Below are positions 20,774 through 22,091 of a stretch of 39,048 bases of DNA, piece after piece. The stretch's first letter is position 1, and the number at the start of each line of letters is the position of its first letter. The stretch comes from Thiomargarita sp. Lineage in GTDB: Bacteria; Pseudomonadota; Gammaproteobacteria; Beggiatoales; Beggiatoaceae. The position numbers were made by a program, and so were the translations under genes. The notes under the pieces are model-generated. The model worked only from the letters and a program-made list of their open reading frames with translations. It was not told the DNA's origin and searched no databases. The stretch lies in the NCBI GenBank assembly GCA_020720115.1, contig DYPD01000012.1, positions 10,718 to 49,765 of the forward strand, written 5' to 3'.

Positions 20774-20948
20774 TGTCGCTCTTGGCGTTGTTGCACGGCG
20801 CAATGCACTGGTTTCTGGTTAAAAACAGGATGCAGACGAATGTTATGCCGCTCATAGCTTCTTTAGTCATACTCGGCTGTTATATACTGAATCCACTCTA
20901 AACGCACATTGCCTGATGGCACACACTTATATACGGAGATATTTCGTC

Positions 20949-22091
20949 ATGCGTCCAGAAAATTATCAACCTGTTGAACACCCTGCCAGCCATGAATATG
21001 AATTGTATTTTGGTCCCAATCATCCTGGCATTGAAGGTAATTATGCGCTGAAAGTGCTGCTCTCTGGCGATGAAATAGTGAAAGCCACTGCTGACGGTGG
21101 TTATCTGCATCGCGGTTTTGAAAAGCTCATGGAAGAACGCCTGTGGATACAAAATGTGGCGCTTGTACCGCGTATTTGCGTGCCTGATCCGGTGCCTATG
21201 GAAGAAACTTATGCGCGTTGCGTGGAAATGCTTGGCGGCTTGGAAGTGCCGGAGCGGGCACAGTGGATTCGCGTATTAATGCTTGAATTATCAAGAATTT
21301 GTGCGCACATTTTTACCTTCGGCGGCAATTCTGCCACCATCGGACAATACAGCACCATGTTCTGGGGCGTATCTGACCGCGACTTGATTTTGGATATTTT
21401 TGAAGAAATCAGCGGCGGGCGCATTTATCACATGTATATCACGCCCGGCGGCGTGCGCCGCGATTTGCCAGAAGGTGTGCTGGAACGCATCGCACGGGTG
21501 CTAGACGACATTGAAACCCGCTTGCCAGAATACGACGATTTATTTTTCGACAATCCAGTATTTATGCGCCGTTCTCAAGGCGTGGGTAAAATGAGCGCCG
21601 AGCAAGCATTAGCCTGGGGCGTCACGGGACCCAACCTACGCGCTTGTGGATTGCCCTTTGATTTGCGCCGCGACGATCCTTATTTGGTTTATGACCAACT
21701 CGAATTTGAGGTGCCCACTGAAACCGGCGGCGACATTTACGCCCGCACCCTAGTACGGCGTGCCGAGTTAAAACAAGCCTTCCGCATCGTGCGCCAAGTC
21801 ATCAAGCGCCTGCCTTCAATCAAGGGTCCCATCCGTTGCCCGCTACCCAACCCGCTGGCGTGGAACATCCCCAAAGGCAGCGCTTACGCCCGCACCGAGT
21901 CATCTAAAGGCGAACTGGGCTTTTTCGCCGTATCCGATGGTGGCACCAAACCCTGGCGCGTGCATGTGCGCGGCGCGTCCTCCATGCACGCCGTACAAGT
22001 GCTGGAAAACCTATGCAAAGGTGCTCGCTTGGAAGACGTAGCGCAAATCATGTTCTCGCTAGACGCCTGCCCGCCTGAAGTGGACCGCTAA
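20949..22091 (+). CDS. Orphan NuoD/[NiFe]-hydrogenase large-subunit-like protein
   Basis: A 380-residue protein from the ATG at 20949 (GGAG at 20935-20938); a start at 20916 lacks support. It is homologous throughout to complex I subunit NuoD: FGPNHPGIEG, GYLHRGFEKLMEE, VPERAQWIRVLMLELSRI, SAEQALAWGVTGPNLRACG and KGELGFFAVSDGGTKPWR. The usual complex I quinone-site Tyr aligns with Val (RICVPDP). The region holds Cys77 as in the hydrogenase L1 motif R-x-C-x-x-C, but without the second Cys. The C-terminus (DACPPEVDR) likewise has the first Cys (374) of L2, with Glu377 in place of the second. It is therefore neither a standard NuoD nor a complete [NiFe] subunit. No NuoB, NuoC or membrane subunit is adjacent. 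Function unknown. Confidence 0.88.
   Translation: MRPENYQPVEHPASHEYELYFGPNHPGIEGNYALKVLLSGDEIVKATADGGYLHRGFEKLMEERLWIQNVALVPRICVPDPVPMEETYARCVEMLGGLEVPERAQWIRVLMLELSRICAHIFTFGGNSATIGQYSTMFWGVSDRDLILDIFEEISGGRIYHMYITPGGVRRDLPEGVLERIARVLDDIETRLPEYDDLFFDNPVFMRRSQGVGKMSAEQALAWGVTGPNLRACGLPFDLRRDDPYLVYDQLEFEVPTETGGDIYARTLVRRAELKQAFRIVRQVIKRLPSIKGPIRCPLPNPLAWNIPKGSAYARTESSKGELGFFAVSDGGTKPWRVHVRGASSMHAVQVLENLCKGARLEDVAQIMFSLDACPPEVDR

Follow-up and report, generated by a model that had tools for sequence, protein, structure and literature searches.

The P. furiosus MBS complex (formerly Mbx; PDB 6u8y) combines the subunits J, K, L, N and M with a Mrp-type membrane arm. According to the available parts of its description (PMC7684303), the large subunit MbsL retains C85 and C385 out of four cysteines that coordinate [NiFe], and has no equivalents of the quinone-binding residues H38/Y87 or of hydrogenase E21; a Pyrococcus C85A/C385A mutant retains activity. 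The same parts give C28, C93 and C123 as the cluster ligands of MbsJ, C25 not binding the cluster. The 13 Pyrococcus MBS subunits include no GltD module. Ferricyanide treatment reportedly abolishes polysulfide reduction by Pyrococcus MBS, and iron brings it back. Putative bacterial Mbx complexes are already in print, including those of the tubeworm symbiont Endoriftia (Mrp-Mbx; PMC11636981) and of T. maritima (MBX; PMC9431562), which we liken to the present one through the accessible parts of their descriptions. The subunit described below belongs to this known kind.

Within a window of 39,048 nucleotides (the whole stretch of DNA that was analysed) on contig C170 of a Thiomargarita sp. assembly, positions 20949..22091 encode a 380-aa NuoD-like protein, in a frame open from 20916 or 20949; all features given here lie on the + strand. 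A GGAG at 20935..20938, read from the sequence, is the probable ribosome-binding site of the ATG at 20949. Judged by its PDB match, its position in a tree and the operon context of its relatives, this gene is very probably mbxL/mbsL. Its product would be the large subunit, homologous to NuoD, of an Mbx/MBS-type complex, with the genes for that complex dispersed across the genome of this sulfur bacterium of the Thiotrichales.

As in subunit L of Mbx/MBS, two of the four [NiFe] cysteines are kept in the alignment. Cys77 (codon 21177..21179), within RICVPDP, aligns with MbsL C85 and with the first L1 cysteine of hydrogenases, and Cys374 (22068..22070), within DACPPEVDR, aligns with MbsL C385 and the first L2 cysteine; the second cysteine of each hydrogenase pair is replaced, by Asp80 and Glu377. 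The quinone-site His (Nqo4 H38) is replaced by Glu29 (21033..21035), the quinone-site Tyr (Nqo4 Y87) by Val78 (21180..21182), in a column where MbsL also has V, and MbhL E21 by Gly30. The alignment bears out the first-pass annotation, made from the letters alone, in its naming of RICVPDP/Cys77, DACPPEVDR/Cys374, Val for Tyr and Glu for His. That annotation saw in these residues a mosaic of hydrogenase-like and complex I-like signatures. The residues are real, but as the same two cysteines occur in Pyrococcus MbsL, the half-kept pairs are the known signature of the MbxL/MbsL family, and the apparent evolutionary oddity is removed, half-kept [NiFe] cysteines being the normal state of MBS.

A search returned 98 relatives, of which we used the best 80, a set skewed to close ones (49-93% identity), and we added the window where counts are out of 81. 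R75, I76, C77 and V78 are identical in 81/81 sequences of this alignment, and C374 and P376 in all 80 members that reach them (locus L077 being truncated), conservation that is far from chance. The column of Gly30 is G in 81/81, and that of Glu29 is E in 69/81. The first cysteine of each ligand pair is shared with the group 4 [NiFe] hydrogenases (MbhL, HycE), but the window protein lacks the second cysteines, and with them the two C-x-x-C pairs of such hydrogenases, has G in the place of MbhL E21 and stands apart from them in the tree. As the Pyrococcus C85A/C385A mutant is active, Cys77 and Cys374 have no proven function and need not be catalytic; they are remnants of a hydrogenase pocket, kept for structure or for a putative secondary role.

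The best PDB match of the protein was 6u8y_L, the P. furiosus MbsL (363.1 bits), followed by Nqo4 (274.6 bits); the alignment to 6u8y_L spans residues 26-391 of the 391-aa form and includes RICVPEP and DNCPPDIDR. A tree of 60 rows, which took in 49 of the 81 family members and left out 32 (L077 among them), contains a branch, supported at 100/99, that separates MbsL and the 49 bacterial sequences from the six NuoD rows of complex I (96/86) and from four rows that are hydrogenase-like (100/100). The relatives in the tree span four named phyla, Pseudomonadota, Spirochaetota, Calditrichota and Bacillota. MbsL itself came out among the bacterial sequences, close to those of Halanaerobium, Spirochaetes and Calditrichota, an inner position that is unsure since the tree program warns of long branches, that of MbsL included. 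Family identity, like the invariance of the two cysteines, the partner genes elsewhere in the assembly and the co-occurrence reported below, was established by computation.

Homology to NuoD/Nqo4 extends along the full length of the protein, and the Pfam assignment is Complex1_49kDa. A rival identity would be that of an additional, divergent NuoD able to replace the usual one in the ordinary Nuo complex. In its favour, an NCBIfam model for NADH-quinone oxidoreductase subunit D passed its threshold (440 bits against 360), whereas the TIGR01962 NuoD model remained below its own (350 vs 459 bits). The fold, too, was indistinguishable from NuoD among the matches listed: the 50 listed of 398 with Z of at least 2 all came from complex I or were related NDH chains, with equal scores of Z ~40, and with MBS and MBH absent from these 50, so that the fold comparison does not separate the families. 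The AlphaFold2 model of the protein had a pTM of 0.83, with pLDDT <50 at residues 53-76 and in the loop 23-31. However, the six NuoD rows keep the quinone-site His and Tyr that the window protein lacks, and have Asp/Glu and Val at the positions of the two cysteines; the protein branches with MbsL and not with NuoD; its gene co-occurs with, and in relatives usually adjoins, J, K, M, H and N genes that are its own; and contig C98 of the same genome bears a nuo operon that includes a nuoD. We consider a second NuoD very improbable. Two outcomes that the first-pass annotation had named as fatal to its reading, a place inside NuoD with poorly conserved cysteines and a gene that is the only nuoD of its genome, are contradicted by the tree, by the invariance of both cysteines and by this nuo operon. 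This gene should not carry a nuoD annotation.

The window gene is under purifying selection. Compared with the same-genus copy at locus L004 (93% identical), its changed codons comprise 165 synonymous and 27 non-synonymous ones, and the differences at codon positions 1, 2 and 3 number 37, 14 and 172 of 380. Promoter-like matches (4 vs a shuffle mean of 2.4) and terminator-like matches (4 vs a mean of 3.5) were little above the shuffles. That the gene could be a relic, decaying after the loss of a complex, was one of the earlier suggestions, and the break-up of the operon in the window's family and the occurrence of mbxL 3'-tail fragments elsewhere in three genomes would fit it. An intact open reading frame, the predominance of synonymous change and partner genes that are open in the same genome argue against decay, which we regard as very improbable.

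The 80 relatives belong to Thiotrichales, Chromatiales, Thiobacillus-like bacteria, tubeworm symbionts, some Alphaproteobacteria, Spirochaetes, Calditrichota and Halanaerobium, and in most of them mbxL lies inside a conserved Mrp-Mbx operon, in the order Mrp-type subunits, MrpD, MbxH, MbxM (NuoH-like), MbxJ (NuoB-like), MbxK (NuoC-like), MbxL and MbxN-GltD. Using tblastn on flanks of up to 8 kb in these best 80 of 98 relatives, and counting only loci with enough flank, we found MbxJ near mbxL in 68/73, MbxK in 72/77, MbxN-GltD downstream in 67/74, MbxM in 56/67, MbxH in 50/58 and MrpD in 50/56. Five tubeworm-symbiont loci (L029, L030, L031, L033 and L034) carry the Mrp-Mbx operon. The seven loci without a downstream MbxN-GltD (L004, L005, L006, L008, L009, L011 and L014) are all of the window's own family. 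At L039, J, K and N are adjacent, yet MbxM, MbxH and MrpD are absent within 8 kb.

In the window, by contrast, a Uma2 gene starts 4 bp past the stop codon of mbxL, and it had been proposed that the protein was repurposed to work with this Uma2 or with a nearby MBL gene. Apart from that close spacing the proposal finds no echo in the relatives: both neighbours occur in 0/80 loci, the same-genus L004 included, within flanks of up to 8 kb. Of all the explanations considered, we give this one the least credence.

The partners of the window's mbxL lie elsewhere in its genome. Searches of the assembly (3.86 Mb in 185 contigs, with a completeness of 99.5% and a contamination of 4.4%) with MbxJ, MbxK, MbxM, MbxH and MbxN gave no match on C170, where the contig extends ~17 kb beyond mbxL without another Mbx match. 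MbxJ and MbxK were found on contig C138, MbxN-GltD on C146, and on C128 Mrp-type MrpE, F, G, MbhD-like, MnhB-like, C and D together with MbxH and MbxM, so that J, K, M, N, H, H' and a Mrp-type arm are all present, as expected of an Mbx/MBS partner set. The best PDB match was to P. furiosus MBS for MbxJ (211.1 vs 117.9 bits for the next), MbxM (186.5 vs 66.3), MbxH (187.1 vs 108.5) and the N-terminal part of MbxN (85.4 vs 67.9, to MbsN). The gene looks orphaned, we conclude, because the genes of its complex are scattered over the genome. It stands alone, as the first-pass annotation noted, on its contig, but not in its genome; the suggestion there of a subunit of an unrecognised redox complex was right about the redox complex, which is of a recognised kind. 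The partner contigs are assigned to the assembly by binning only, and the estimated contamination of this bin is 4.4%. L, J and N are also present in another genome of the same genus (G003), at 93, 88 and 85% identity. Scattering sets the window's family apart from P. furiosus MBS and from T. maritima, where, in the available part of PMC9431562, mbx is one transcription unit, whereas in the window's genome the genes lie on four contigs.

Co-occurrence was examined in 42 genomes of the order, with E limits of 1e-40 for J and 1e-150 for N, chosen to be strict so that NuoB and GltD proteins of other kinds would not be counted. MbxL was found in 15 genomes, MbxJ in 16 and MbxN-GltD in 16, with none of the three in 26, and all 15 genomes with MbxL also have MbxJ and MbxN-GltD. 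One genome (G037, 87% complete) has MbxJ and MbxN and gave no MbxL match, and in another (G038) the MbxJ match contains two TAA codons within the aligned stretch. L and N are on separate contigs in 15/15 MbxL genomes, and J is on the contig of L in 9/15; as many assemblies are fragmented, part of this separation could be due to assembly.

MbxJ has the short C-x-x-C loop of the MBS type and aligns with MbsJ without gaps. In the loci of the relatives, the columns of the MbsJ ligands C28, C93 and C123 are invariant (68/68, 69/69 and 70/70, respectively), and the column of the non-ligand C25 varies, being G in 3/68. This pattern points to a three-Cys proximal cluster on MbxJ, as in MBS.

The bacterial MbxN differs from that of P. 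furiosus MBS in carrying a C-terminal GltD/NfnB-like FAD/NAD(P)H module. Its N-terminal part has MbsN of 6u8y as its best match, and the matches of its C-terminal part are flavoproteins, for instance the NfnI large subunit and the glutamate synthase small chain. One aligned stretch spans both modules in at least 63/67 loci, and the 17 Cys of the first 270 residues and the checked FAD/NAD(P) glycines are invariant in the 64-67 loci covered. This fusion may be new; neither it nor the dispersal of the operon was found described in the literature searched, most subscription papers lying outside that search. The mbx cluster of T. maritima may include a GltD-like gene. As Pyrococcus MBS has no GltD among its subunits, the electron donor of the bacterial complex may differ, and the fusion of MbxN to a GltD/NfnB-like flavoprotein makes NAD(P)H, perhaps with ferredoxin, the probable partner. 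On C146, MbxN-GltD is directly followed by another GltD-like flavoprotein (L106:2471-4168), which has a ferredoxin domain at its C-terminus, and near the MbxN gene (L106:6379-11937) is a large polyketide-synthase-like ORF (1852 aa, by eye).

By homology, MbxL, MbxJ and MbxM would form a hydrophobic chamber with neither a [NiFe] site nor the quinone-site His/Tyr, in which the proximal [4Fe-4S] cluster of MbxJ, held by three Cys ligands, would split the S-S bond of polysulfide or another sulfane. The open iron of this cluster would exchange electrons with the substrate at the MbxL/MbxJ/MbxM junction. Electrons would pass through two clusters of MbxN, wired to FAD and NAD(P)H, and the Mrp-like arm would couple the redox step to Na+/H+ movement. 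The fusion of MbxN to its flavoprotein module suggests an NAD(P)H-linked, ion-coupled polysulfide reductase. Our best guess at its role would be energy-conserving reduction of stored sulfur, via polysulfide, in anoxia, and for a sulfur-reducing role as such we would put the chances at about even. The complex may also run in reverse, with gradient-driven reduction of NAD(P)+ by sulfide or persulfide.

Several observations in print touch on this role, each taken from the available portion of its source. Respiration of stored sulfur is known in Beggiatoaceae (PMC4959497), and mbxA of T. maritima rises with sulfur (PMC9431562). Against such a role, co-expression links the Mrp-Mbx genes of Endoriftia to the ferredoxin-dependent rTCA cycle and not to the Calvin cycle, and the same Riftia-symbiont study groups MBX with complexes whose function or direction in vivo is unknown (PMC11636981), so that gradient-driven reverse operation is possible. 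We tentatively propose, at somewhat less than even chances, that this NAD(P)H-linked MBS variant serves giant and other sulfur-storing bacteria as the ion pump for respiring their sulfur store in anoxia, or in reverse makes NAD(P)H from sulfide by drawing on the ion gradient, its operon having become fragmented in the window's family. The literature searched, most subscription papers lying outside that search, names no enzyme for the stored-sulfur respiration of Beggiatoa-type bacteria, and the complex is a testable candidate for it.

The family identity could be right and the complex still work mainly as a ferredoxin:NAD(P)+ or an NAD(P)H-driven, ferredoxin-reducing ion pump, sulfur chemistry being secondary or absent. 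The Endoriftia co-expression with the rTCA cycle would suit such a pump, as would the frequent downstream MbxN-GltD, the continuity of its two modules and the invariance of its cysteines and FAD/NAD(P) glycines, and Mbx is described as a ferredoxin:NADP oxidoreductase in the accessible parts of PMC4596419 and PMC3608648. Against it stand the conservation, in sequence, of the MBS three-Cys proximal cluster and of the empty polysulfide-reducing site, and the names of many of these bacteria, which mark them as sulfur oxidisers. We judge this alternative possible and rather unlikely, and a polysulfide-reducing complex remains the reading that we prefer.

Some further features of these genomes were recorded. 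The window's genome has dsrA, above its cut-off; in the region C121:21737-29565, a 654-aa open frame with GltD-like matches lies ~5 kb from this gene and may be dsrL. The ~3.4 kb between MbxH and MbxM on C128 (L095:7676-11104) hold only small ORFs, some toxin-antitoxin-like by eye. In other genomes of the order (L125, L126), a NuoD-like protein of ~530-540 aa, HyfG-like by eye, is a different paralogue, in which Ser replaces the first Cys of each hydrogenase pair. Detached mbxL 3'-tails occur in G016 (L138:3302-3604; 98% nt over 267 bp to its own mbxL) and in G003 (L136:2266-2649; 94% over 334 bp, past the stop codon), the latter with a transposase-like ORF (IS630-like, by eye) directly upstream. 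A diverged 116-bp piece of such a tail (78% nt) lies on contig C154 of the window's genome (L137:2228-2347), and a fourth match, in G031, is a 123-bp, 100% overlap of contig ends.
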